A DNA stretch of 25,028 nt from a virus. The stretch lies in the IMG/VR virus record IMGVR_UViG_3300009156_000268, positions 1 to 25,028 of that record; one strand, written 5' to 3'. Numbering within the stretch: position 1 is the stretch's first letter; each line of letters opens with the position of its first letter. Made by a program: the position numbers and the translations under genes. Of this stretch, positions 1-22,623 are shown piece by piece. The notes below the pieces were generated by a model. The model made no database searches. It had not been told where the DNA came from and worked only from the letters and a program-made list of their open reading frames with translations.

Positions 1-249
1 CATTCCCTCTTGCGCGAGAATAACGTATTCTTCCTCGTGGTCAATACACCATTGCTGGAAGGTGATAAGTTGATCAGGCGTAATAGACTGTAGCACTCCC
101 GGTCGAAGTCCAGCTGTAACAGTGAGCCGCTCTATAATCGGCCAGACTGTCCCAATAGCCTGCAATCTGGGTTGCCAGGTTTCCCTGGCGCGCTCCGAGG
201 CCCAGACGATTCGAGTGAACTCAGGAAGTGAAAATGGGAGGCGGTCCAT
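1..249 (-). CDS. Partial unknown protein (N-terminal 83 aa) following the radical SAM gene
   Basis: The frame opens at an ATG (249-247) and stays open to the left window edge, so only the first 83 residues are seen. An AGGAG sits about 9 nt upstream of the ATG, which supports a real start. The gene overlaps the 3' end of the radical SAM gene by 29 nt, so the two are probably co-translated. The visible part is soluble and helical-looking, rich in Trp and Arg (WASERARETWQPRLQAIGTVW, then an acidic DHEEEY stretch). It has no signal peptide, membrane segment or motif I recognise. Its position directly after an HxD-repeat protein and its candidate maturase makes it a possible third component of that system (accessory factor, recognition protein or another enzyme), but that is inference from context only. 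Confidence 0.75.
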   Translation of the reverse strand, partial: MDRLPFSLPEFTRIVWASERARETWQPRLQAIGTVWPIIERLTVTAGLRPGVLQSITPDQLITFQQWCIDHEEEYVILAQEGM

Positions 250-1456
250 CTAAAATTACTCCTGGAATGCCGCCTTCAAATACCATTGAGGAGTCGGCAT
301 GGGCATCTCCGTGAGGACTATCTCCATGAGAGTCACCATGAGCAATATCACCATGAGGAGTATCCTGATGATGACCTTGCTCGCCGGTCCAGACTCGAAG
401 ATATGCACCCTCAATCTCAGTCTTTGCTAGCTCAGATAAGACCGCGCCTTTCTGGTCGGTCTCGATTCTCTCGAAGAGCGTATACCAGGTTCTACAATCC
501 CGGGTTCGATTTCTCCAGTCTCCATCAATCGCCGTGCCAGGACACTGTCCTTTACAGAATACGAAATATTTGCATCCGGCGCATCCTCCAACAGCTTGCG
601 GCGTCTGGCGTAGGAGAAGATATCTTTCGAACCCAGGCGTGTCCGCCTTGACCCAGTTAACGCCATCCTTATTTGTTCGTCCACAGTTGGACTTTGATCC
701 ATCTGGTGAAACACCTTGAACAGCAGCAGTAGTAGAAGGATCGCAATGATTCCATATACAAGATACATTTGGATTCCTCTCTGTGAGCAGCTTCTTGATG
801 TCATCGAAAGGTTGGATAGTCATCTTCGATGTCTTAGACCATAGATAGAGACCAGTAAAGGCTTTGATCGTTTCTGCCTCTGTTAAGCAGAGATGCTCTC
901 GGCCCTCTTCGATTTCAAGATTATGAATATTGACGTGCTTAATCCCCATCCGTTCTAGACTGTCGAGCCAAGTTAGTAACTCTACGAAGCGCCACTCGAT
1001 ACCGTTCCGTTTGTGGATAGTAATAATCAGGGACGGTGTAAGTCCTTCTGTGCAAAGGGTTTCAATCGCTGACAGAGTTTGAGTAGTTGCAGTAAGAGTA
1101 TCATCCCCACAGACCCGTAAAGAATTAAGGTAGCCGGGTCCGTCAACAGATATGCCAACCTGGACTCGATACTTCCTGAAAAGCTCGACATGTTGAGGAG
1201 TAATGAGAGTGCCATTGGTCTGTATCCCGTTACTACCGTATTTCTCTAGACCAAACTTCCAGACTTCCTCTAGATGCTCAATAGGAGCTAATAGGGGCTC
1301 GCCTCCGAAAACAGTGAACTGACTGGTCAGCTGTGTTTGGACGCGCTCCCAATCGCGAGGGACATTGATGTTTCCTGCATCTCTCATCGGGTCTTGGTAG
1401 CAATAGCTGCAGGACAGATTGCAGGCGATACCTACTGGTAGATACTCTATAGTCAT
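221..1456 (-). CDS. Radical SAM/SPASM protein with C-terminal His-x-Asp repeats
   Basis: This is a 411-aa radical SAM enzyme of the SPASM type, a group that includes many maturases of ribosomal peptides. The SAM cluster motif CxxxCxxC is C12, C16 and C19, followed by GGEP at 51-54. The C-terminal half has the full SPASM cysteine pattern: C238, G253xxxxC258, then C292xxC295x5C301xxxC305 and C321, enough for two auxiliary iron-sulfur clusters. Residues 362-388 are a low-complexity tail with six HxD motifs, followed by MVFEGG (about 391-396), which resembles MFFEGG in the neighbouring HxD protein. The start ATG overlaps the stop of that upstream gene as ATGA, so the two are coupled. The family and cluster ligands are clear from sequence. 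The likely substrate is the HxD protein (or the enzyme's own tail), and the modification is unknown. A heme or quinone cofactor maturase role is less likely given the context. Confidence 0.93.
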   Translation of the reverse strand: MTIEYLPVGIACNLSCSYCYQDPMRDAGNINVPRDWERVQTQLTSQFTVFGGEPLLAPIEHLEEVWKFGLEKYGSNGIQTNGTLITPQHVELFRKYRVQVGISVDGPGYLNSLRVCGDDTLTATTQTLSAIETLCTEGLTPSLIITIHKRNGIEWRFVELLTWLDSLERMGIKHVNIHNLEIEEGREHLCLTEAETIKAFTGLYLWSKTSKMTIQPFDDIKKLLTERNPNVSCIWNHCDPSTTAAVQGVSPDGSKSNCGRTNKDGVNWVKADTPGFERYLLLRQTPQAVGGCAGCKYFVFCKGQCPGTAIDGDWRNRTRDCRTWYTLFERIETDQKGAVLSELAKTEIEGAYLRVWTGEQGHHQDTPHGDIAHGDSHGDSPHGDAHADSSMVFEGGIPGVILDGPPPIFTS

Positions 1457-3102: not shown

Positions 3103-3602
3103 TGCACCGGAAGAGTTACGTTAATCCAGAGATAATTACCGTTCGCTGCGACCCACTGAAATGATGGGAGTGGAGTGAGACTAATATTAGTAGCACCTGC
3201 CCCCACATCCACTGAACCCGACAACCAGCCAGCACCATTGTAGTAAGTAAACATCCCAATCGAACCCGCGGATGCAACACGAAATCCACCAGGTATCGTG
3301 ATGCTGATTATGCCCGGACCACCAGTAAGGTCGAACGCATTGACGTTAATAGCCCAATGCATGACCTTACCAAATACCACGTATCTATTAACTGGGATAT
3401 TTCCTGTGCCTGGGATGACCCAGGTCAATGCTCCCCAAAAATTTGCTATGTTGAATGGAACATCAGTCCACACAGGAAAACGTCCGGCTGGGAGAGTTCC
3501 CTCATTCATCACAGCCGCGTTCATCGGAAGCGGAGTCCAATTCAGACCGTTATCGACACTCCTCTCCCAAACGTGTGAGTTCTGATTCCAGCGTTTCCAC
3601 AC
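3099..3602 (-). CDS. Tail-associated structural protein, unknown
   Basis: A beta-rich protein of 167 aa (from GTG 3602) with many Trp, Gly and Asn residues and a segment WERSVDNGLNWTPLP near the N-terminus, the kind of wording seen in phage tail-fibre and receptor-binding proteins. I place the start at GTG 3602-3600 because it overlaps the upstream TAG as TAGTG, the same coupled junction style used elsewhere in this cluster. An in-frame TTG at 3626 would add 8 residues, and an ATG at 3524 would remove the WERS segment. No obvious Shine-Dalgarno precedes any of these, so translation probably depends on coupling. There is no enzyme motif. Function as a tail tip or fibre-base protein is inferred from position between the fibronectin-domain protein and the fibre. 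Confidence 0.7.
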   Translation of the reverse strand: MWKRWNQNSHVWERSVDNGLNWTPLPMNAAVMNEGTLPAGRFPVWTDVPFNIANFWGALTWVIPGTGNIPVNRYVVFGKVMHWAINVNAFDLTGGPGIISITIPGGFRVASAGSIGMFTYYNGAGWLSGSVDVGAGATNISLTPLPSFQWVAANGNYLWINVTLPVQ

Positions 3603-5038
3603 TAGACGATTCCCCGAGCCTTCCAAGAGATAGGATACGTGACCCTATTTCCCGTTGTATCCAGAGCAAAGACGCTGAATCCTTTTGGGTTCGGCACGTC
3701 TGTAAAATCGTAGATGACGTCAATCGGTTCGATAGCATCTGCCGTAGCAGTTATCGAGTCGATGTCTTTGAACTCTTTATTGAATAGGACCGGTGTTCCA
3801 TTTGGTCTGCCACCCTGCCCATCATGCTCTTTCTCTGCTAGAATGTTACCCGAGTCAAGTTCTCTCTTGACGTCCAAAGTAACTTGAATAAGTGAGAACT
3901 CAGCGAGTGCTTTGTTATCTGATGCAGTAAAATCCAAGTGCATTCTTAGATAACGAAACTTCGGGATAAACTGTGAGTTTCCAACAACAAGAGGACTGAA
4001 GTTAATATTATCTGTTGAGTAAGCCAACGAGATAACCATACTAACTGTAGGAATATGCTCAACAAGTTGATAGTTAATCGTAACGATTGTATTGTTAACC
4101 TCTGTTATATAGTCAATGACTTCGTCATACCAGCCTGTCACCTCAGTCGGCTGAGAGTAGATTGGATAGCCGGCGTTGATCTGCTCCTGTATTGTATTCC
4201 AAGCATTGAGTCGGAAATGCTCATCCCAGGTTGGATAACCAGATACGCAAGCTAATAGACTAGGAGTCGTAGGAAGTCGCTCTACGTTATGTCGCTGTCC
4301 ATTGAGGTCGCTAAGTCTCTGATCCTCAAGCTCGAAGTCTGGTGGTGTATGGACCGAAGTCGTTACGCTACCTTTATTGCCTACATTGCCAGCAACGTCG
4401 ATAGCTTCTACGCTGTATGTATAGGTGCCTGCAAGAGTCTCAAATATCGGAGTAAACGTGCCCGAGCTGACCCCGAACTTGTTACCATCCTTATACAGAT
4501 TGTAACGATCGACCTGATGGCTAGTAAAAGGAATAGTCCAGTAGAGAAGGACGTTGTTATCAATAACCGTTGCTGTTACAAGAGGCGCATTGGGAACGAC
4601 TACCGTGAGAGTAACGTAATCAAACTCCGGTGAGTAGTTCCCGAGCGTATCAATCGTTTTGATAAGAAAGTTATAAGTCCCCGCTGTCAGAGGAGGAAGC
4701 GTAGCGTTAAACGAAGGCGTGCGCGTGACGAACGACGCTGTATCCCACTCTAACTCAGTGCTTCTACGAATCTCATAGAGATGGCCTGCGGGTGTCGGAA
4801 CGCCCCAGGTTAACCCAATAGACAGAGGAAGAACCGCGCCCATGAAATACGGTGGCGCAGGAGCCGCACCGACACCTTGACCACCCGTAGGGATGGAAAC
4901 TTTCTTTAAAACAGGTCCTAGCTTTTCTGTCAGTTCGCTAAGGTTTAAGCTAACATCACGGAGTATCTCCTTGAGAACGAGAACCGAACGGTCATCGTTG
5001 CCTAGTGAGTCGATACGAGAGTCGCGCTGAACAGTCAT
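3602..5038 (-). CDS. Tail protein with two fibronectin type III-like domains
   Basis: This 478-aa protein has a short charged helical N-terminus (about 1-50). Two tandem fibronectin-III-like beta sandwiches follow at about 62-148 and 150-230. They are recognisable from matched patterns: the early SIGLTWGVP and VLLYWTIP strands, YEIRRS and YNLYKDG, and the late GTYNFLIKTIDTLGNYS and GTYTYSVEAIDVAGNVG. The rest (about 240-478) is beta-rich with repeated short strands and may contain a further sandwich such as a discoidin-like fold. Fn3 domains are common in phage tail tips and fibres, where they act as surface or carbohydrate-contacting modules. The start ATG overlaps the upstream stop as ATGA and the stop overlaps the next gene's proposed GTG. 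Tail localisation is inferred from domains and context. Confidence 0.82.
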   Translation of the reverse strand: MTVQRDSRIDSLGNDDRSVLVLKEILRDVSLNLSELTEKLGPVLKKVSIPTGGQGVGAAPAPPYFMGAVLPLSIGLTWGVPTPAGHLYEIRRSTELEWDTASFVTRTPSFNATLPPLTAGTYNFLIKTIDTLGNYSPEFDYVTLTVVVPNAPLVTATVIDNNVLLYWTIPFTSHQVDRYNLYKDGNKFGVSSGTFTPIFETLAGTYTYSVEAIDVAGNVGNKGSVTTSVHTPPDFELEDQRLSDLNGQRHNVERLPTTPSLLACVSGYPTWDEHFRLNAWNTIQEQINAGYPIYSQPTEVTGWYDEVIDYITEVNNTIVTINYQLVEHIPTVSMVISLAYSTDNINFSPLVVGNSQFIPKFRYLRMHLDFTASDNKALAEFSLIQVTLDVKRELDSGNILAEKEHDGQGGRPNGTPVLFNKEFKDIDSITATADAIEPIDVIYDFTDVPNPKGFSVFALDTTGNRVTYPISWKARGIV

Positions 5039-9115: not shown

Positions 9116-10399
9116 CTAGTAGCCCGCGGGAACCGCGAGGTTGTCGATGTAGCTCGAAGCCGCTGGATTCGAGTTGTAGATGTTGAAGGAGGCGACCGTG
9201 TAGAAGATCTGCGAAGTGGCGACGCCTCCAGATGCACCTCTGATTTCGAAGATCTTACGATCATCGACCTCGTAGAAACCCGCCGGATGCATCTCGGCGC
9301 GCCCCCAAGTGTCCATCACGAGGAAGTCAATGCGTCGCTTGTCCCACGAGAAGTGCTTGCGAATCGGGACACCAGCGATCTTGAAGTTGTCTCCGTCCCC
9401 GAAGTAGAGATCGAGGCTCTGCTTACCGGGGGTTTTCTCGATCGTCATCATGAGCTGACCGAGTTCTTCGTATGCTTGAACCTGTGCGGGATGCATCCAG
9501 GCAGTCGGGCGGAAGCTGTGGTCCTGACCGAAGCGGTCACCCAGCTTGTTGAGGGCTACCCTGGCATACGAAAGCGCCAGCGACGTGCCATTCGCATTGA
9601 CTCGGTTCGACCGAATCTCGGGGAACAGCGCACGATCAAGTCCCAGCCAGCTCCCAGTGGAAGCATTCGACACGTGATAGGGCACACCGTAGAGCGACAC
9701 AGGAGGTGTGCTCGTCAAACCGGAGACCACCAACTTGTCACCTACGACCGGAGTCGTTGCCGCTCCGTTGACTGTGACCAACTTGTTCTGCAAGTCGAGC
9801 AGAGTGATCGGAGCCTCGCCGTTGAGCGTAGCTGACCCAGCGAAGGGCTTACGAGTAGCCAGCGTGGCGTCGTAGAGCGACACCATCTGACCATGACGCA
9901 TCAAGCGCACGCCGTAGCCGTCCGACGCGCACGTCAGCGTGTCCTTGCCGCCAGCGGTGGTGTAGCCCGAAACGACACCGAGCGTGCCGGTCCCGTCCGA
10001 GGAAACTGCCAGAGCGTCAACCGCGCGACGGAACTCCGTCATGCCAGAGGCGAGCAGCTTCTTGACCGCCTGGACGACAGCCTTCCTCTGGGAATCCGTC
10101 GACCACTCGGTCTTCTTGTGCCATTCAATCGCGTGCCGAAGATGCACGGTGTTGATGACCGCCTTTTCGTAGGTCGGTCCCTCACCGCGTCCCAGGTCTC
10201 CGCCAGCCGGGTCGAAGTGTCCGAAGCGCCCACCAGGCCTGATTTCCAGAGGGATTCTCATGTCCCGATTGGAAATCTGTTCGACCTCCCCCTTCTCGAT
10301 CTGCGAGTAGAAGGTGTCCTCCTTATCGAAGAGGACCGGAATCTTCTTCCGGACATTCTCCAACTCAGTGGCCGCTACCTGAGTTTCGTCCATTGCCAT
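9116..10399 (-). CDS. Major capsid protein
   Basis: A 427-aa protein, close in length to P22 coat (430 aa) and encoded directly after the scaffold gene, as expected for a HK97-fold major capsid. The N-terminus is charged and helical (MAMDETQVAATELENVRKKI). A loop with RPGGRFGHFDPAGGDLGRGE could be the extended E-loop. A long helix AVVQAVKKLLASGMTEFRRA may be the spine helix. A Gly/Thr-rich central insertion (about 165-260) precedes GDRFGQDHSFRPTAWMHPAQ. Base composition is visibly richer in G+C than the neighbouring tail genes, consistent with codon choice for high expression. An AGGA lies about 10 nt upstream of the start. A structured gap follows the gene. Identity is from context and general fold pattern, not from a search. 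Confidence 0.83.
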   Translation of the reverse strand: MAMDETQVAATELENVRKKIPVLFDKEDTFYSQIEKGEVEQISNRDMRIPLEIRPGGRFGHFDPAGGDLGRGEGPTYEKAVINTVHLRHAIEWHKKTEWSTDSQRKAVVQAVKKLLASGMTEFRRAVDALAVSSDGTGTLGVVSGYTTAGGKDTLTCASDGYGVRLMRHGQMVSLYDATLATRKPFAGSATLNGEAPITLLDLQNKLVTVNGAATTPVVGDKLVVSGLTSTPPVSLYGVPYHVSNASTGSWLGLDRALFPEIRSNRVNANGTSLALSYARVALNKLGDRFGQDHSFRPTAWMHPAQVQAYEELGQLMMTIEKTPGKQSLDLYFGDGDNFKIAGVPIRKHFSWDKRRIDFLVMDTWGRAEMHPAGFYEVDDRKIFEIRGASGGVATSQIFYTVASFNIYNSNPAASSYIDNLAVPAGY

Positions 10400-10414: not shown

Positions 10415-11677
10415 CTAAGCCCTTCTCTTAGGCGTATACTTTCCATTCAGGAAGTCGAGGTCGGAAGTCTTTCCCCAGTTCACATCCCGGGCCGACGGGA
10501 CCTTTGCGGCCTGACCTGAGGCTTGACGACCTGACTGCGGAATGTTAGTGCGCGCTTTCTGAGTCGTTGCTTGTTTACCTTGAGCTGGTTGTAGTCCTGC
10601 CTCTGCGCGAAACTTCTGTCGAACTGCCGGAATCAAGGCTTTAGCGCCTCGCAGATAGGCGTCAATAATCTCTCTGCGTGCCTCTTTCGGGAAGCCACTC
10701 GACTCAGCTCTGCGCCACAAAGCATTCATCTGTTTGAGGTGGCGCACGTCCTTACCAAGAAGGCTGTCCACCTCAGTGAAAATCTTATCTTTCAGAGTAG
10801 TTTTAAGAAACGGGGAGATGGATTTGTCATTATCAATCCCTCTAGCGATTTCCGCGAGGGTCTCTTCCCGACCGTTCGAGAAGCACTCATTACTGAAGTC
10901 CTGAGCCTTCTCCTGCCAGAACGCCTGACGCTGCTGCTGAAGCTTCTGCTCTTCAGGATTGACCGCAGGCTTCTCTTCGAGATTCGGAATCTCTGGCTTA
11001 CCGTAGAGATACTTGGCAATGTGCAGCGCAGCGTTCCGAAGGTTCACGTTCTCGGAGCCTTCTGCATCACGCATCGCACTGCGAAGCACGTCGTTGACTA
11101 CTGGTAGAGTAATCTCAGCAAAGAGTTCCATCGACTTGTTACGAATAGTCGGAAGGAAGTCCTTGGCGACGCGCTTCATCGCCTCTGGATTGCTCTTTTC
11201 AATATCATTAATCAGCTCTTTCGCAGAGCCGCTCATGATATTGGTTTCGAGCTGGTTGAAGTAGGACGCTACTTTGACTGCGTCTCTTGCATCATCCGGA
11301 CTCGTGAAAATCTCGCTATACGCGCGGTCGTTGCGAATTGCCGTAGCAAGCTGCGGAAAGTCTTTGAAGACGGTCGGATACTTGGTCTTAATATCCTTAA
11401 ACCGGAGTTGGCCTGCTGGGACCTCTGTATCCTCTGTATCCTCAGCTGGAGTCTTTGCAGCCGGCTTCTTGCCCTCTTCAGGTTCGTCTGCATCAGAGCC
11501 TTCTTCGATCGGTTCTTCAAATGAGACCTCATCTGGCTCTGTTTCTTCGGCAGTTTCTGCTTCCTCAGTAGGCTCATCTGGAGCATTCAAGATGTCCAGA
11601 TCGGACTGGCCCGACCCGGTGGGACCACCCAACGCATCTGAGTCATCATAAAAAATCTGAAACCATTTAAGGAACAT
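10415..11677 (-). CDS. Scaffolding protein
   Basis: A 420-aa highly charged protein between portal and capsid, the usual place for scaffold. Residues about 20-90 are a very acidic, low-complexity stretch (many E, D, P and T, with EETEPDEVSFEEPIEEGSDA). The remainder is helical and Lys/Glu/Gln-rich, and the C-terminus turns basic and ends YTPKRRA, as in scaffolds that bind coat through a positively charged C-terminal tip. I place the start at ATG 11677, where GAGGAG lies about 7 nt upstream and the overlap with the portal gene is only 11 nt. The frame extends 30 codons further into the portal gene without a better start. The role (co-assembly with coat, then exit or proteolysis) is known for the class and inferred here. 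Confidence 0.78.
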   Translation of the reverse strand: MFLKWFQIFYDDSDALGGPTGSGQSDLDILNAPDEPTEEAETAEETEPDEVSFEEPIEEGSDADEPEEGKKPAAKTPAEDTEDTEVPAGQLRFKDIKTKYPTVFKDFPQLATAIRNDRAYSEIFTSPDDARDAVKVASYFNQLETNIMSGSAKELINDIEKSNPEAMKRVAKDFLPTIRNKSMELFAEITLPVVNDVLRSAMRDAEGSENVNLRNAALHIAKYLYGKPEIPNLEEKPAVNPEEQKLQQQRQAFWQEKAQDFSNECFSNGREETLAEIARGIDNDKSISPFLKTTLKDKIFTEVDSLLGKDVRHLKQMNALWRRAESSGFPKEARREIIDAYLRGAKALIPAVRQKFRAEAGLQPAQGKQATTQKARTNIPQSGRQASGQAAKVPSARDVNWGKTSDLDFLNGKYTPKRRA

Positions 11678-14165
11678 TCTGAACTCCTCTAGGTGCTGGA
11701 ATTGACTCTGTATCCTTTGCCTTAGGTGGAGAGCCTTTACCACCCGAGGTTGACTCAGGCGGACCACCCGGAGGTGGCGCGCCCATCATCATCTGCTCCA
11801 TCTGCTCTTTCTGCTCCAACCCTGTGTGCATCTGAAGATGCGCTACGACGTTCATGTAGCCACCAGGATTGGTCTGCTTTTGATCCATCCCAATCTCTGA
11901 AACACACCATTCCTTGATCACTGCAATATGGACTCCGTGGTCGTCCACGTCTTCCTCAGCAGGAATCGAAGGCTGTAGGATAGGAGTCCCGTCTACGGGA
12001 TTGATTCCCATAGGCTGGGGCTGGCCCGAGAGCATCTCGTAAATCTCGTAAAGCTGCTTAGTCCTATCCGAATTACCAGGAACCGTGATTTCTGGCACGC
12101 CTACGAGATCAGCTATTACGTGTCGATTCTCAGGATGGAACATCGCCTCATTGAGAGCTTCGTTGTTCAGTTCAAGGAGGCGCATAATTACGTCGCGCTT
12201 CTGACTCCAAGCAAGAGGGAATTGCTCAGAAAGCTCTGGCTCGACCTCTCCAACCTCTCCCGTCATCTCCGCCTTGCGAATCCAGACGTTCACAAAGGTA
12301 TTCTTACCCTGTGATTTGACCAGTTTCTCGTCTGTTTTCATGTTCTTGGCGTAACCCTTGACCGCTTTGGTCTCGATGTCAGCCCAGAAGAACGAAATCA
12401 TCTTGTAGATAATCTGTAACCTTTGCAGAGCCTGAGCTCTGGACATGCTGTATTCCGCAGCGGTGTCCGAACCACCTTGCGCGTTACCGCCGTAGACCGA
12501 CGGGACTGTTCCCAACACAAACTGACCAGCAACCTGTAGGTCGTCAGCAAACTCTTTGTGCTCCCGCGATAGCATGGCAGCTTTGTTAGTATAAAATGCT
12601 GCGCCAATGTTCCCTCCAGCAGGAGCCTTAACGGGATATAAAGACCCAGGAGAGACTTCCATCTCTCGGTATTTCTGGAAATCGAGCACAGAAGAGTCAA
12701 CAAATGTCTCTGGGATTCCGTATCGTATCGTTTCAATAGTAAGCTGGAATAGTTCATTGGTCATCTCTTGAACAGGAACAATAGCGTTAGCCATCGGCTG
12801 CCCGTGGACTCGATCTAGAATAGGGTCGACCGAAACGGTCCAATACTCATCCATGTCCTCATCGTTAACTTCTGCCAGGACATCGTTAATGTAGACCGCT
12901 CGGATTCCCTTCGGGAACTGTTCCTTAAGGGCGAGCATCCTCTCGTCGTCGCTCTTTCCGAGCTTATTGAACATCCAGGGGCGCAACCAGACCTGTCGAC
13001 AGGTGCAAACATCTGCATCGTCATCGTTCTGCACGATTGACGGACTCCTTGCCCATCGATCATACCTTTCACTGTCTGCCGTAGGCACGATCTTATCCGC
13101 GATGCGAGGGAACTTTTCCTGCATTTCGGCGACTTCGTGCTCGGAGTTCAGAATCAGATAGCCTGACTGTTCAAGAGTGCGCGCCCTTGGAAAGATTTGG
13201 ACGTTAGTTGCACCATACAACTCGATGATCTGACGCATCTTAGGCACAACTTCTTCGTAGTCGAACTCCTGCGTTGGCTCAGTCTGCATGTCCTGCATGG
13301 GCTGAACCATCGACCCGCAGTTAGGACACAGTGTGCCACCTTCTATCGGAGGCTCCATCAGATTCTCTGGCGGAGGCTCGGGCGGCAGCATCGGGTCTTC
13401 TACTGGTGGCTCCTGGGGATACTCCATTTCAGCAGCCGACTGGGTCCCAAGTATTTGCTCCGCTTCGTCAATGGGAGGCAGGAGTTCCGGTGCCGCTTGG
13501 GAGACCTCACCCTCAGGGACGGGCAGCCCCTCGGGCGCGGGGGGCGGCACCGGAAGTTCGCTGTTCATCGGTTGAACAGCTAGATTCTCTCCGCAGTCTG
13601 GGCAATAGGACACTGGCGTTTCCTGAACGCCCTCTTTGAAATGCGGAATCCTATCGACGCCATACTTCGGATGTTGATCGTTATACGTATAAGCTGCGAT
13701 AATTCCCTGATTATAAAGCAGTCCAATCGCCTTCATGAAGAGGAACGGAACTTTGTTATGCTTACGGATTAGCTCGGCAATCCTGCTAAACGACTGAGCA
13801 GTGTAAATATCCGCAGATACGTCGGCGTCATTTGGAAAGAAGCGAGTCGCAGGAATAGACTGCGAAATAGCCGCGACGATAATCTCTCCGTGCGCCTTGT
13901 AGATATTGACAACCTTGTTCTCTAAGTTGGCGTCATCTTCAACCACTTCCCCATCAGGGTTCTGGGAGATGTAACGCCAGTCGTGAGCTATCTCAGAGAA
14001 AAAGATGTTCTGGAGACCTTCCCAGAAATACTCGTTCCGCTTGTAGATACGCATCAAGCGATCGCGCGCAAACTGGTCCCTATGGTCGATGTCCAGAATA
14101 ATTGAGTCAAGGCCCTGCCGTAGTTCGTCCGGCAGGATCTCGTCTTCGTCCATCGGGATAGTCAT
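11667..14165 (-). CDS. Portal protein with zinc-knuckle/proline-rich insertion
   Basis: An 832-aa portal-like protein, the ring at the capsid vertex through which DNA enters and leaves. Support: position between terminase and scaffold, an acidic helical N-terminus, and the portal-like core FVLGTVPSVYGGNAQGGSDT, AAEYSMSRAQALQRLQIIYK and WADIETKAVKGYAKN. P22 portal is about 725 aa. The excess here is explained largely by an insertion: a CPDCG knuckle (C188, C191) and a CPNCG knuckle (C280, C283) enclose about 88 residues dominated by Pro and Glu. Both knuckles are followed by similar VQPM wording, so they probably form one zinc ribbon split by a flexible loop. The C-terminus (about 790-832) is Gly/Pro/Met-rich. 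The start overlaps the upstream stop as ATGA. Portal identity is fairly sure; the role of the insertion is unknown. Confidence 0.8.
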   Translation of the reverse strand: MTIPMDEDEILPDELRQGLDSIILDIDHRDQFARDRLMRIYKRNEYFWEGLQNIFFSEIAHDWRYISQNPDGEVVEDDANLENKVVNIYKAHGEIIVAAISQSIPATRFFPNDADVSADIYTAQSFSRIAELIRKHNKVPFLFMKAIGLLYNQGIIAAYTYNDQHPKYGVDRIPHFKEGVQETPVSYCPDCGENLAVQPMNSELPVPPPAPEGLPVPEGEVSQAAPELLPPIDEAEQILGTQSAAEMEYPQEPPVEDPMLPPEPPPENLMEPPIEGGTLCPNCGSMVQPMQDMQTEPTQEFDYEEVVPKMRQIIELYGATNVQIFPRARTLEQSGYLILNSEHEVAEMQEKFPRIADKIVPTADSERYDRWARSPSIVQNDDDADVCTCRQVWLRPWMFNKLGKSDDERMLALKEQFPKGIRAVYINDVLAEVNDEDMDEYWTVSVDPILDRVHGQPMANAIVPVQEMTNELFQLTIETIRYGIPETFVDSSVLDFQKYREMEVSPGSLYPVKAPAGGNIGAAFYTNKAAMLSREHKEFADDLQVAGQFVLGTVPSVYGGNAQGGSDTAAEYSMSRAQALQRLQIIYKMISFFWADIETKAVKGYAKNMKTDEKLVKSQGKNTFVNVWIRKAEMTGEVGEVEPELSEQFPLAWSQKRDVIMRLLELNNEALNEAMFHPENRHVIADLVGVPEITVPGNSDRTKQLYEIYEMLSGQPQPMGINPVDGTPILQPSIPAEEDVDDHGVHIAVIKEWCVSEIGMDQKQTNPGGYMNVVAHLQMHTGLEQKEQMEQMMMGAPPPGGPPESTSGGKGSPPKAKDTESIPAPRGVQNVP
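13560..13580. repeat. Palindrome GCTGTTCA-N5-TGAACAGC inside the portal gene
   Basis: A perfect 8-bp inverted repeat with a 5-nt centre (TCGGT) lies in the portal coding sequence beside the first zinc knuckle. With the following TAG it matches the intergenic palindrome at 24689-24705 and its flank at 19 of 21 positions. It could be an operator-like site or chance; in the portal it is also constrained as codons. Confidence 0.4.
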
Positions 14166-18634: not shown

Positions 18635-18987
18635 TAGACCCCCTCAGGGAGCTTTCCGGCTTTGTCGTATTCGTCCTGCACGCGCGCCCAGTATTGCTTC
18701 TTAGCCTCTGGATTGTCCTTCGCTTCCTTATCCTCAGCCATCTTTCTAAGTTGAGCAGTCGTCAGAATGTTCCGTAAAGGTTTCTGCTCTGCGACCACCT
18801 CGGGTTGCGGTGGAGCTATCAGACCACCTCTCGTGAAAAGTAACGTCTGTAGAGCAGAATTGCCTTCTCGCTCCGACTTCAAGAGTGCCTGAAGGTCCTC
18901 GATGTGCGCGATTCGTGCCGCACAGCCGAGACAGACCTTTGGTTGCCTTACTACGAGAGAAGGTCGAAAAAGGTCAGTGAGCCACAT
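18634..18987 (-). CDS. Unknown small protein downstream of terminase
   Basis: A 117-aa protein of unknown function. The N-terminus (MWLTDLFRPSLVVRQPKVCL) leads into a CLGC pair at residues 19-22. A helical, coiled-coil-like segment follows (AHIEDLQALLKSEREGNSAL), then a proline-containing linker and a charged helix (LRKMAEDKEAKDNPEAKKQY). A single CxxC could bind metal in a dimer, but no second pair is present. The gene overlaps the terminase 3' end by 14 nt and joins the giant gene as TAATG. It has no Shine-Dalgarno of its own (TTTCCTT precedes the ATG), so it probably relies on coupling. A packaging or portal-assembly accessory role is only a guess. Confidence 0.72.
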   Translation of the reverse strand: MWLTDLFRPSLVVRQPKVCLGCAARIAHIEDLQALLKSEREGNSALQTLLFTRGGLIAPPQPEVVAEQKPLRNILTTAQLRKMAEDKEAKDNPEAKKQYWARVQDEYDKAGKLPEGV

Positions 18988-20647
18988 AAGGAAATCGTCG
19001 TCTTCTTAAGCCTTTATGGAAGATCTTGACTGGTCTCTGTTCCGTTGCCTTAATTCGGTCTAATTTCTCCATCCTGCGGTAGAAACCAGTCATATCTCCA
19101 GAGGTTTGGAGGTATTCTAATACTTGATTCAACCGTTCTCGGTCCGCCGAGACGGCGACTGATTGCTCTACCCAGCGATGAACCTCTTTTATCAGGTAGC
19201 GACCCCCATCATAAGGGTCATCACCTGGAAATTCCATGACGTCTTCCGTTTTTACGTCATCGTAGACACAAAGTGGAATAACGTCCTCAAAAGCTGATAA
19301 ATCTTGCGCGACGTAGAGCCTTGAGTCCTTGAAAACCTGTAATTTCGGGATGTTTTGCTCCGGTCTTTCCGGCTCAAACATCGAAGAATACTCTTTGAAC
19401 GCCTTTTCACCATGAATTCGGAAGATCCTAGCTCCCAGCTCGATATCAAATCCTTCCTTAGGAATGATCCTCGCTGGTTTCGGCTTCCAGCGTAAGTATT
19501 CATGCATCACCATCTTGCCGCTGATACGATCGTTGTCAGCAAGACTGATTCTGAACCTTGCGTCCTGCTCTGTCGGGTTCAGGACTTCAACGAATTGCTG
19601 TAGAATCGACCTCTGATCGCCTTGTTTCTGCTTGGCCGAGGGATCAATAACTACTGAATCGATTATCTCTCCTTGAGACAACCGGACAAAGTCCGATGCC
19701 CACTCTACGATCTTCCTGTTCTTCTGTCCATACTGACGGTAGAGAAAAACCTGATTATTTGGAGCTATCGCAGCCCATCCCATCCAAGTCATAGCAGAAT
19801 GGCCCCAGTCAATTGCTGCAATCCGAGGCCAGAAAGCTGGAAGTGGAAAAGGATCGATAAGATGGAGAGCATTTTTCGGCTCTCCCTCGAAGTGTTCATG
19901 ACGCCATTCGTCAAAAACCTGACCAGTGAACGTCCACCAGTCACCTTCGAGCTTTGCTTTTTTCTCTGCTGTAGGAAGAAGTTGAAGTCGATTTATATAG
20001 TTGGGGTCCGCGTTCATCAAGAACGGGTTGTCCGTCAACTTAGCGGGTATGAATATTCGGTAGCTTTTTGCGGCTCTGTCGTATATCTTTGTATATCCCT
20101 GCTTTGCAGGCTCTACAAACCGTTTTCTGACCCAAGCATGACCGACATTACCCGGGTTCGTGGCGCCCCGGACAATCGCTGGGAGGCTTGGGTCAGAAGT
20201 TCTGCATCGAGAAGTCAGGTAAACATACTGAAATTCTTCGAAAGCAGTTAATTCATCGAATGCGATGTAGTTGTATTCCGCGGTATCGTGAGAACGTGCG
20301 TCCTCACTTCGCAGCATGTAAGAAAACTGTATCCAACATCCTGAAGGAAATGTCCAACGATGCTTCGTATCGTTATAGGTGGCGCCGAAAAAGGGGTAAA
20401 TTTCTCGTGAACGTGGAATGAGTGACTCTTCAAGTTCGGGGAAAGTCCTACGAAATATAACTCCCTTGAAAGAAGCATTTTGATACCACCCCCGAGCAAT
20501 GGGCAGCATCAAAAGGAGTTCTGACTTGCCTCCCCCGGCCGCGCCACCATAAAGACTCTCGAAAATGGTATCTGGAATCCGTATAAAGTCCGTCTGCCGC
20601 TTACTCGGCTCCCAGACTTTAGCGCCATCTACGGTCTGAAACGGCAT
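18974..20647 (-). CDS. terL: Terminase large subunit (DNA packaging ATPase/nuclease)
   Basis: A 557-aa motor protein that pumps phage DNA into the procapsid and cuts it. The N-terminal ATPase has a Walker A-type loop GGAAGGGKS (34-42) and Walker B YIAFDE (D131, catalytic E132), then GATNPGNVGH (161-170), matching the coupling motif region of terminases. The C-terminal RNase H-like nuclease shows IAAIDWG (D280) and VVIDPSAKQ (D335), giving two of the expected metal-binding acids; a third acidic group is probably near 455-475 (VYDDVKTEDV). Length is normal for the family. The start ATG overlaps the stop of the small membrane-protein gene as TAATG. This is the most secure functional call in the window and, with the portal and capsid that follow, defines the region as a tailed-phage head module. 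Confidence 0.95.
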   Translation of the reverse strand: MPFQTVDGAKVWEPSKRQTDFIRIPDTIFESLYGGAAGGGKSELLLMLPIARGWYQNASFKGVIFRRTFPELEESLIPRSREIYPFFGATYNDTKHRWTFPSGCWIQFSYMLRSEDARSHDTAEYNYIAFDELTAFEEFQYVYLTSRCRTSDPSLPAIVRGATNPGNVGHAWVRKRFVEPAKQGYTKIYDRAAKSYRIFIPAKLTDNPFLMNADPNYINRLQLLPTAEKKAKLEGDWWTFTGQVFDEWRHEHFEGEPKNALHLIDPFPLPAFWPRIAAIDWGHSAMTWMGWAAIAPNNQVFLYRQYGQKNRKIVEWASDFVRLSQGEIIDSVVIDPSAKQKQGDQRSILQQFVEVLNPTEQDARFRISLADNDRISGKMVMHEYLRWKPKPARIIPKEGFDIELGARIFRIHGEKAFKEYSSMFEPERPEQNIPKLQVFKDSRLYVAQDLSAFEDVIPLCVYDDVKTEDVMEFPGDDPYDGGRYLIKEVHRWVEQSVAVSADRERLNQVLEYLQTSGDMTGFYRRMEKLDRIKATEQRPVKIFHKGLRRRRFPYVAH

Positions 20648-20841
20648 TATTTAGCTTTTTCAGCTCGTGCAGCTTGGTAGCTTGACCAATGTCCAACTAC
20701 GTTAGCGTAGAGGCTCATCGTAGCCACCCAAAAAATGCTTTCCTTCCACCAAAGAATTGTAGGAATCAAAAGAAGCGCCCAAATCACCGTCATATAGAGG
20801 TGAAAGTTGGGAGATCTAAGGAATTTTAGAGCCTTTTGCAC
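20647..20841 (-). CDS. Small membrane protein (64 aa), possible holin
   Basis: A 64-aa protein with two hydrophobic segments, about 15-32 (LYMTVIWALLLIPTILWW) and about 35-50 (SIFWVATMSLYANVVGHW), separated by a KE turn and flanked by a basic N-terminus and a charged C-terminus (ARAEKAK). This predicts a hairpin with both ends on the same side. The start is a GTG at 20841 that overlaps the previous gene by 16 nt; the stop joins terL as TAATG. Small two-segment proteins next to terminase genes are often holins, but no endolysin is seen nearby and many phages have unrelated small membrane proteins here. Membrane location is clear; a lysis role is a guess. Confidence 0.75.
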   Translation of the reverse strand: MQKALKFLRSPNFHLYMTVIWALLLIPTILWWKESIFWVATMSLYANVVGHWSSYQAARAEKAK

Positions 20842-21050
20842 GTGACTGTCGTGTTCGCGAGCGCGGAGCGCACGAAATTACCGAGCGCGTATTGGCCTGA
20901 CGTGTGCGCGGCGTAAGTTCCGCCCAAAGACTGAGCAACTTCAACAGCCGCGCTTCCGATCAAGAGGCAAGCTCTGTTCGGGAGCGCATATTCGACGTTT
21001 TGTGCCAGAATGGTCGGAGCGCCGATCGGAATCGAGTATGTGATTGCCAT
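20826..21050 (-). CDS. Unknown small protein (74 aa)
   Basis: A 74-aa protein starting MAITYSIPIGAPTILAQNVE, mostly small and hydrophobic residues with a few strands, ending LANTTVTCKRL. It lacks a signal peptide cleavage site and a clear membrane helix. Composition (Ala, Gly, Ser, Thr and Val) fits a beta-structured virion or surface protein. The ATG overlaps the upstream TGA as TGATG, with GGAG about 9 nt upstream. I do not recognise it; a minor structural role is possible from its place beside packaging genes. Confidence 0.68.
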   Translation of the reverse strand: MAITYSIPIGAPTILAQNVEYALPNRACLLIGSAAVEVAQSLGGTYAAHTSGQYALGNFVRSALANTTVTCKRL

Positions 21051-21199
21051 CAGTCTTTACTCCACATCCGTCGTTTCTTCGGTGGCGTCTTCTTGACGAA
21101 CTCTTTGGCTACCGCTGGCTCGATTTTCTGAGGACCAGAGAGGCCACCATGCGACGCAGCTTGCATAAAACGGTATTGTTTTCCGCTTACTGCTGGCAT
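21050..21199 (-). CDS. Small basic protein, MPAVSxKQYRFM family-like (49 aa)
   Basis: A 49-aa protein beginning MPAVSGKQYRFMQAASHGGL and ending in a very basic VKKTPPKKRRMWSKD. The opening resembles a widespread family of short phage and bacterial proteins that start MPA-[VKT]-S-K-x-Q-x-[RK]-F (DUF3008-like); their function is unknown. I choose ATG 21199 because a long purine-rich ribosome site (GGAGAGGAGAGG) ends 5 nt before it. The same frame extends upstream across the neighbouring 79-aa gene, but that extension is Arg/Ser-rich shadow sequence. The Lys/Arg-rich tail suggests nucleic-acid contact. The gene overlaps the next by one base. Confidence 0.7.
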   Translation of the reverse strand: MPAVSGKQYRFMQAASHGGLSGPQKIEPAVAKEFVKKTPPKKRRMWSKD

Positions 21200-21215: not shown

Positions 21216-21455
21216 CTACCGCTTGGGCTGCGGCTGCTGTCCCGGGAGACCCTGCGATGGATGCGCTCCACCGCTTGGCAGCGTGTTGTCGACCTTCGGC
21301 GCGAGGAACCAGCCGAGAGCCGTCTTGACCGGCGTGAACTCCCGCGGAGGAGCCGGAAGCTGCGTCGGTTCCGGGGGAGCTGGAAGCTGAGAGGCCTGCG
21401 CGTCATCGACCTCATACATCACGCCGACGAACTGAACCACTTTACCCTGTGCCAT
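21216..21455 (-). CDS. Unknown small proline-rich protein (79 aa)
   Basis: A 79-aa protein opening MAQGKVVQFVGVMYEVDDAQ and then dominated by Pro, Ala, Gln and Gly, with QLPAPPEPT followed by QLPAPPREFT as an internal duplication. AAGGAGA lies 5 nt before the ATG, a strong ribosome site. It follows the PEP-CTERM gene by 10 nt and precedes the 49-aa gene by 16 nt. There is no signal peptide or known domain. The start and spacing support a real gene; the function is unknown. Confidence 0.68.
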   Translation of the reverse strand: MAQGKVVQFVGVMYEVDDAQASQLPAPPEPTQLPAPPREFTPVKTALGWFLAPKVDNTLPSGGAHPSQGLPGQQPQPKR

Positions 21456-21465
21456 CTGTGTCTCC

Positions 21466-22086
21466 TTAGTGTCGGGTTCGGAAGCGACGAGCGGCTGCTA
21501 CTAGACCCGACCCGAAAAGTAGCAGCGTAGCTGGCTCGGGAACGGCGGTCGCTGTCGCCGTGTCCGTCGCTGAGAAGCTGAATGCCGTGCCGGCGTTCGT
21601 GACGGCTAGCGAATAGGTTCCTGGAGTGTCGTCAAAACCTGCAATGTGGAACAATCCGGTGCCAACGACGAGCAGACCAGAACTGTTCCTGAAAGGACTA
21701 GTGACAGTCAGCATGTCAAAAGTCGCGCCCGTTGCAGAGGTCTGCCAGGAGGCGATCGGAGCCGTCGGGTAGATCCCACAAGATCCTGCTACGAAGCAGA
21801 AGTCCTTGATCGTCCCGCTGCCGACGATGCCAGCAAAAACGCCAGTGCCGCCGTCGATGCTCATTGGACCAGCGACGTTCGGCGTCGGAGCACCTGTATT
21901 GGTGAAATCAAGCGCGACAGCTTGGTCGAGAGTCGTCACAGTCCCATTTCCAAGGACCGGGAGAACGCAATCAGCGCCTGGACAAACAAGCGCACTCTGG
22001 GAGAGCGTCACTGAACCTGTAATCGGGACAGCGTATGCGGTTGGAGCAATCGTGACGGCGAACAAAAACGCGGCGAGTTTCTTCAT
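21466..22086 (-). CDS. Exported PEP-CTERM-sorted protein
   Basis: A 206-aa secreted protein. Residues 1-19 are a classic Sec signal (MKKLAAFLFAVTIAPTAYA, cleavage expected before VPI). The body is beta-rich, full of Gly, Thr, Ala and Val, with two cysteine-containing loops (CPGADC and CFVAGSC). The C-terminus is a textbook PEP-CTERM signal: VPEPATLLLFGSG (from about 182), a hydrophobic helix and a basic end RRFRTRH. In bacteria this tripartite tail is recognised by the membrane enzyme exosortase and the protein is sent to the cell surface or exopolysaccharide. No exosortase is in this window, so a host enzyme would be needed. AGAGGGA lies about 5 nt before the ATG. The gene sits 9 nt after a lipoprotein gene in an otherwise virion-type operon, which is very unusual. 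Its role may be host-surface alteration. Confidence 0.88.
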   Translation of the reverse strand: MKKLAAFLFAVTIAPTAYAVPITGSVTLSQSALVCPGADCVLPVLGNGTVTTLDQAVALDFTNTGAPTPNVAGPMSIDGGTGVFAGIVGSGTIKDFCFVAGSCGIYPTAPIASWQTSATGATFDMLTVTSPFRNSSGLLVVGTGLFHIAGFDDTPGTYSLAVTNAGTAFSFSATDTATATAVPEPATLLLFGSGLVAAARRFRTRH

Positions 22087-22095
22087 GTTTCCCTC

Positions 22096-22623
22096 TTAGA
22101 ATCGAGTTGCTGTCCATTGTGCGGCTGCGTCGAACCCTACGACATTCCAGCCGAACTTCGAGTTACCACAATAATCAATAATGATATCTACAGCCCAAGC
22201 ACCGATATTATCGGACGTTGCTCGATAGGCGATGACATCGTGAGAAATCGATCCAGAGGATTTGATGAGGTATCCCCATCGCGTATCAGACTTCCTTAGA
22301 GCGAGTATAACAGAATCAAGATAAGTCCAAGAACTAGCACCGTAAGTGTCTTCACAAGACTTGGTAATGTAGGATTGAGGGACAGCTTCGGCAATCTGGC
22401 GCGCGTTTGCAGGGATGTTGACAGGAACTTCACTGCCTCCCGTAGGAGTAGCGACTGGCGCGCTCGGAGTGGGACTAGGAGTGAAAGCACCAATGTCATG
22501 TATCTCGATAGTATTGGTGTTCGTATTGGTGTTGTCGATCGTCGGACCGGTGATGTTTATATCACAAGCTGTGACGACGAGCAGAAGAACTACAGCACAG
22601 ATACTTCGGCTCGTCGTCTTCAT
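22096..22623 (-). CDS. Lipoprotein, unknown
   Basis: A 175-aa predicted lipoprotein: basic start, hydrophobic stretch AVVLLLVV and lipobox VTAC with lipidated Cys20. Asp at the +2 position would, by the E. coli rule, keep it at the inner membrane, though hosts differ. Residues about 28-70 are a low-complexity Asn/Thr then Pro/Ala/Thr linker (NTNTNTNT, PSPTPSAP). The C-terminal domain (about 75-175) is compact with two cysteines (C90, C152) that could pair, and a repeated aromatic strand pattern ending WTATRF. I do not recognise the fold. It lies 16 nt after the proline-rich gene and 9 nt before the PEP-CTERM gene, so these two exported proteins are probably made together. Superinfection exclusion or envelope modification are possibilities; an outer-membrane spanin is less likely because of its size and folded domain. 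Confidence 0.82.
   Translation of the reverse strand: MKTTSRSICAVVLLLVVTACDINITGPTIDNTNTNTNTIEIHDIGAFTPSPTPSAPVATPTGGSEVPVNIPANARQIAEAVPQSYITKSCEDTYGASSWTYLDSVILALRKSDTRWGYLIKSSGSISHDVIAYRATSDNIGAWAVDIIIDYCGNSKFGWNVVGFDAAAQWTATRF

Follow-up and report, generated by a model that had tools for sequence, protein, structure and literature searches.

The window (the whole stretch of DNA analysed, 25,028 bases of an IMG/VR virus record) encodes on its minus strand, at 21466..22086, a PEP-CTERM exported protein of 206 amino acids in an intact reading frame. Read by eye from the translation, the N-terminus is a Sec-type signal peptide (residues 1-19, 22030..22086, minus strand; MKKLAAFLFAVTIAPTAYA followed by VP) with a KK pair, a hydrophobic core and cleavage expected after AYA. 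The ectodomain (residues 20-181, 21544..22029, minus strand) is followed by a PEP-CTERM sorting tail (residues 182-203, 21478..21543, minus strand), in which the PEP motif, a hydrophobic helix and an Arg cluster succeed one another (VPEPATLLLFGSGLVAAARRFRTRH at the C-terminus). The tail scores above the curated cut-offs of Pfam PF07589 (28.2 bits versus 20.7, E 1.8e-6) and NCBIfam TIGR02595 (19.5 bits versus 16), and membership of the protein in the PEP-CTERM sorting class is well supported, with the tail judged by these cut-offs and the Sec signal by eye. The initial annotation, which had described a Sec signal and a complete PEP-CTERM tail and had proposed a scan with a model of the TIGR02595 type, is borne out in this respect.

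A PEP-CTERM search of the whole window record found this gene as the single place, and the search matched 0 of 14 control genomes. Outside the tail, the protein reaches no Pfam or NCBIfam family cut-off and matches no PHROG; the named PEP-CTERM subfamily and equivalog models listed all score far under cut-off, matching mostly the tail. A sequence search of the PDB with A1 (the alignment of the window family) and A4 returned chance matches only, and the models from two AlphaFold runs (pLDDT 37.7 and 39.5) are too poor to speak to the fold.

Genes surrounding the PEP-CTERM gene

The PEP-CTERM gene belongs to a same-strand run with genes of a tail protein (3602..5038, phrog_1727, E 1.5e-11), the major head protein (9116..10399, phrog_14242, E 0.00037), the portal protein (11667..14165, phrog_1216, E 1e-7) and the terminase large subunit (18974..20647, phrog_979, E 2e-47, and PF03237 over cut-off), all on the minus strand, in agreement with its earlier placement in a phage structural operon. 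Between the terminase gene and the PEP-CTERM gene, also on the minus strand, are genes of a 74-amino-acid conserved packaging-region protein (20826..21050, with homologues in contigs G007 and G010-G013), a 49-amino-acid conserved protein (21050..21199) and a small repeat protein with DNTLP and SQGLPG motifs (21216..21455). A lipoprotein gene (22096..22623, minus strand) lies directly upstream. The PEP-CTERM gene has a GAGGG-type ribosome site and is separated by 9 nt from the lipoprotein gene and by 10 nt from its downstream neighbour, and this tight spacing on both sides suggests that it is read together with its neighbours.

The lipoprotein (175 amino acids, lipobox LVVTAC followed by D, no family) is kept in contigs G001 and G007 and is found at 15 IMG/VR loci, with no relatives in INPHARED. 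Its lipobox Cys is followed by Asp; it also contains a stretch of NTNTNTN, and its C-terminal domain (RWGYLIK...DVIAYRAT..AW.VDIIID.CG) is strongly conserved.

Relatives of the repeat protein adjoin the PEP-CTERM gene in G001, G004 and G002. With the G001 version as query, 33 IMG/VR loci were found, at three of which (L330-L332) a different PEP-CTERM protein is encoded beside the repeat-protein relative; there was no match in INPHARED. The repeat protein is proline-rich, with PDNSLPG or DQGLPG motifs (21216-21455, minus strand, in the window; 1727-2230 in L002; 7539-8006 in L026), and its longer versions carry a KRYVVKWLACHGLILVPD core.

Elsewhere in the window, a radical SAM protein (221-1456, minus strand; PF04055 over cut-off, phrog_1802) is encoded beside the tail genes and is 68% identical in G001 and G007, and a phage-borne cold-shock protein (PF00313; 23608-23847, minus strand) has relatives in G001, G005, G007 and G010-G013.

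Homologues of the window protein and integrity of the contig

Homologues that are 67-77% identical to the window protein occur in six other IMG/VR contigs, and a profile search returned the same six. All six keep AVPEPA, the hydrophobic stretch and the arginines; the tail is over the PF07589 cut-off in the window protein and five relatives, and the sixth (L003) passes when its protein itself is scanned. Signal-like segments are present by eye in all homologues, in L003 after a long Pro/Ser-rich extension. Exactly four cysteines (residues 35, 40, 97 and 103 of the window protein) are invariant across alignment A1, as expected for a domain outside the cytoplasm, and the mean column identity of the ectodomain is 60% over six sequences. 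Compared with five relatives, the window gene has a pN/pS of 0.20-0.28 in the mature domain, 0.16-0.37 in the tail and 0.48-0.75 in the signal peptide, values that are rough since synonymous sites are near saturation; on these ratios, the ectodomain is evidently under purifying selection and the signal peptide is drifting. No homologues of the window protein were found among INPHARED phages or plasmids, nor among bacteria in two genome-contig scans that needed exact short peptides and that distant homologues could escape.

The homologue of contig G002 (L003, 7770-7990) is extended at both ends: Pro-Ser repeats precede its signal-like segment at the N-terminus, and its tail continues further past the Arg cluster. 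By eye, the 74-bp end repeat of G002 resembles the 3' portion of a tRNA, such as occurs at attachment sites, and ARAGORN found no whole tRNA.

The contigs that carry the homologues differ in their backbones. G001 (47.6 kb) has a terminase 49% identical to that of the window and the same order of lipoprotein, PEP-CTERM protein, repeat protein and terminase; G002 has a phrog_9 terminase and a phrog_617 head protein; G004 has a phrog_1216 portal and a phrog_371 head protein; G005 and its near copies G003 and G006 have a weak phrog_2 match. Head genes of the carriers are unrelated between backbones, GC content ranges from 51 to 69%, and the third-position GC of the PEP-CTERM gene follows that of its phage. 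A chimeric join is effectively ruled out by the identical gene order of G001 despite its 49% identical terminase, and bacterial contamination by the presence of homologues in unrelated phage backbones. Thus, the integrity of the contig, which the initial annotation had wished to see confirmed, is supported by six homologous contigs that have the tail and by the gene order of G001, and the search for viral contigs with such tails that it had proposed yielded these six homologues as well as other PEP-CTERM families in IMG/VR.

Accessory status of the gene

Contig G007 (50.5 kb, with a 123-bp terminal repeat) is colinear with the window, to which its head protein is 92% and its terminase 84% identical, and has neither the PEP-CTERM gene nor the repeat-protein gene: its lipoprotein gene is followed almost directly by the 49-amino-acid gene, the first gene common to both contigs past the accessory pair. 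Because this near relative is without the PEP-CTERM gene and the next gene, and the window and G001 possess it, the PEP-CTERM gene is, judging from gene content, an accessory gene of the phage (a moron). A PEP tail was found in none of eight near terminase relatives of the window (81-86% identical), several of which are short contigs. At the corresponding slot of G007 (about 44060-44250, locus L031) there is unrelated DNA that, by eye, seemingly encodes a short hydrophobic protein.

PEP-CTERM genes in other environmental phages

Codon-pattern scans of IMG/VR with the patterns VPEPATL and VPEPASL gave at least 242 matches, from which no prevalence is derivable. Among the matches listed, 119 of 242 have PEP-CTERM-like ends by rule, about seven of which look spurious by eye (L040, L098, L109, L138, L170, L200 and L204). 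Fifty records were picked by the authors from the loci with the 119 candidate tails, with long contigs favoured; a PF03237 terminase is encoded by 21 of these records, a PF04860 portal by seven, and either by 24. The PEP gene is on the terminase strand and 0.5-5.6 kb upstream in eight of the 21 records with PF03237, on the same strand elsewhere in five, and on the other strand in eight. Placement near the terminase is not general, as 13 of these 21 PEP-bearing records differ.

Three carriers of PEP genes have exact end repeats (G015, 123 bp; G016, 102 bp; G052, 123 bp) and are therefore probably whole phage genomes, and in G016 a second PEP-type open reading frame crosses the joined contig ends. 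Ten further PEP-type proteins of phages were scanned with PF07589, and nine passed; the exception, L100, was the one AEP-tailed paralogue in the scan and did not reach the model at E 0.01. Four other phage PEP proteins (those of G016, L112, L242 and L128) had no matches in INPHARED. The presence of PEP-CTERM genes in many other environmental phages suggests a phage strategy of altering the surface of the infected cell through this bacterial sorting system. The accessory nature of the gene, its occurrence in unrelated phages and the existence of other PEP-CTERM families upstream of terminase genes go beyond the initial annotation, the observation of which is confirmed.

The phages G016 (L275-L277), G033 and G048, each about 42 kb long, encode a pair of PEP-type paralogues, of which one has a PEP tail and the other an AEP tail; the pair in G016 is separated by a DNA methyltransferase gene. 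PEP-CTERM proteins are also encoded on the IMG/VR records of L128, L199, L253 and L078, some of which have identifiers resembling those of isolate genomes and may be prophages of cultured bacteria.

Exchange of ectodomains upstream of the terminase gene

Two terminase lineages include phages with PEP-CTERM genes upstream of the terminase: the first (phrog_979) comprises the window, G001, G007 (which has no PEP-CTERM gene), G035 and G052, and the second (phrog_2) comprises G015, G016, G030, G033, G044, G048 and G060, mostly 73-94% identical. The PEP proteins encoded upstream of terminase fall into four ectodomain groups (window and G001, more distantly G016 and G033; G015 and G060; G030; G035 and G052), between which there is no detectable homology. 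The window protein and those of G016 and G033 have about 30% identity and a GFDxTPG...SFSAT module in common. Thus, terminases may be 73-94% identical, yet the ectodomains of such phages have no detectable homology; unrelated ectodomains in related phages are what selection for a surface protein with a swappable domain would predict.

A profile of the second-lineage terminase gave a sample of 73 loci not picked for PEP. PEP-type genes were detected at 12 of the 73, a rough figure in which contigs count separately even when related and the strict detector overlooked three known cases (L394/G059; L386/G016, with its open reading frame across the contig ends; L423/G044, with its open frame cut short); by the same detector, 61 loci are without a PEP-type gene. 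In reversed sequence, 850 kb on two strands gave 0 matches. All 12 genes are on the terminase strand, four lie downstream of the terminase start, and three of the 12 loci have AEP-type tails only. A PEP-type gene within 6 kb upstream was found at five of the 32 loci that have at least 6 kb of upstream sequence.

Proposed function and alternative explanations

The best explanation of these observations, advanced tentatively and with a little less than an even chance of being right as a whole, is that the PEP-CTERM gene is a phage moron in a run leading into the terminase and head genes, the product of which is exported by Sec, sorted by the exosortase of the host to the cell surface or exopolysaccharide (EPS), and used most likely for exclusion. 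By its anatomy, the protein would enter the Sec pathway, and the ectodomain would fold in the oxidising periplasm as a putatively beta-rich, disulfide-bonded domain. A PF09721 search of 15 phage records found no exosortase, which would therefore have to come from the host; the host enzyme would recognise Pro-Glu-Pro and remove the tail, and the freed domain might then be passed to the outer surface or EPS of the infected cell. It is reasonable to infer, as the initial annotation did, that a host exosortase places the protein on the surface and that the host range is limited to bacteria with exosortase. In the window and the relatives scanned, ARAGORN found no tRNA.

Most probably, a surface altered in this way would keep other phages, competitors and sisters alike, from adsorbing to the infected cell or to its debris. 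By analogy and from the swapping of ectodomains, exclusion of adsorption or superinfection is the most likely benefit: it is favoured because related phages exchange the displayed domain and because surface lipoproteins of phages exclude elsewhere (PMC3952083). The T5 Llp and Cor proteins are phage surface exclusion proteins. Like the Ltp-type lipoproteins (PMC3952083), the window protein would be a small envelope protein of phage origin, proposed to affect adsorption to the infected cell, and a lipoprotein gene is directly upstream of it, but its own sorting route would be exosortase, and exclusion is ascribed to it by analogy. The module would thus serve superinfection or adsorption exclusion with exosortase replacing the lipid anchor. 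A broader proposal, that PEP-CTERM tails route exchangeable ectodomains through the host exosortase as swappable exclusion modules in tailed phages of exosortase-bearing bacteria, kept in a slot upstream of the terminase in several lineages and corresponding, on an exosortase basis, to the lipoproteins and membrane proteins used for exclusion, is doubtful.

Sorting might be the same and the benefit different: the protein could bind EPS to infected cells and promote aggregation or floc formation, keeping progeny near new hosts or sheltering infected cells, with any adsorption block beside the point. PEP-CTERM proteins of bacteria have a part in forming flocs: PMC9850573 reports that in an Aquincola rpoN mutant a single plasmid-borne PEP-CTERM gene (pepA) restored flocs, bypassing RpoN, and that its overexpression raised bound EPS and lowered soluble EPS, a precedent that also makes it conceivable that a phage product made in quantity would alter the infected-cell surface; for bacteria of sediments, soils and biofilms, the PEP-CTERM/exosortase system is likewise tied to EPS (PMC1569441). 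However, pepA alone rescued flocculation among several Aquincola PEP-CTERM genes tested (PMC9850573), and a generic glue would explain less well than specific recognition why related phages swap unrelated ectodomains, so that the aggregation role is considered unlikely. The tolerance of unrelated ectodomains behind a conserved tail could also mean that the phage protein, in abundance, engages the host exosortase as a decoy substrate, so that fewer host PEP-CTERM proteins are displayed and a thinner EPS layer favours release or adsorption of progeny. This is very unlikely, as a tail would suffice for it, whereas conservation in the window family extends strongly to the ectodomain (the column identity and pN/pS given above).

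The protein might instead act without sorting, its tail serving as a plain membrane anchor or the protein taking part in lysis or in the particle, as its packaging-gene and lipoprotein neighbours and the lack of exosortase in the 15 phage records would allow. A plain anchor needs no Pro-Glu-Pro, however, and PEP is kept in the window protein, all six homologues and nine of the ten further phage proteins (not in the AEP-tailed tenth), which makes such a role quite unlikely. It is highly improbable that the gene is an artefact, whether a chimeric join, bacterial contamination or a host gene captured without selection. PEP-CTERM genes are otherwise bacterial, and bacterial flanks could be present in some IMG/VR contigs with PEP genes, but the gene order of G001, the unrelated phage backbones, the terminal-repeat contigs with PEP-CTERM genes, the G016 open reading frame across joined ends and the purifying selection speak against it, and for the window family it is refuted.

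If surface sorting for exclusion is right, phages exploit a surface-sorting system known mainly from cellular genes; a phage with such a gene would be recognisable as one that infects exosortase-bearing hosts, the EPS producers of sediments, soils and biofilms (PMC1569441), and the genes would provide small natural substrates for exosortase research.

Relation to bacterial and viral PEP-CTERM proteins

A search by title and start of abstract, in a coverage that leaves out most subscription journals, found no literature on phage-encoded PEP-CTERM proteins; the PEP-CTERM passages seen in PMC12642866 and PMC4886054 deal with genes of hosts. The nearest mention, made in passing in PMC11003980, is of hot-spring viruses, for which 13 TIGR03118 proteins that have a domain putatively interacting with exosortase are listed among horizontal gene transfers. 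The window protein is likewise virus-borne, but TIGR03118 is another family, and the portion seen of that paper contains no analysis of a phage gene class, position, function or family.

The window protein has the features of the bacterial PEP-CTERM/exosortase (EpsH) system (PF07589, TIGR02595, PF09721), namely a Sec signal, a secreted domain of low homology, and PEP with a hydrophobic helix and a basic end. Bacterial PEP-CTERM genes are single-gene operons in more than 65% of cases, with more than 200 nt upstream and often a sigma-54 site (PMC1569441). Unlike these, the window gene is phage-carried, in a same-strand run and close behind another gene, and the 900 bp upstream of it contain no sigma-54-like site on its strand. 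Given its spacing from the lipoprotein gene and the absence of such a site, the phage version probably escapes bacterial control; reading from a phage transcript, putatively late, would free it from the regulation that the host imposes on its own PEP-CTERM genes. Across the whole window, 12 sigma-54-like sites with at most two mismatches were counted, versus a shuffle mean of 5.2 (0 of 100 shuffles reached 12), and they lie mostly inside genes, with none just upstream of the PEP-CTERM gene.
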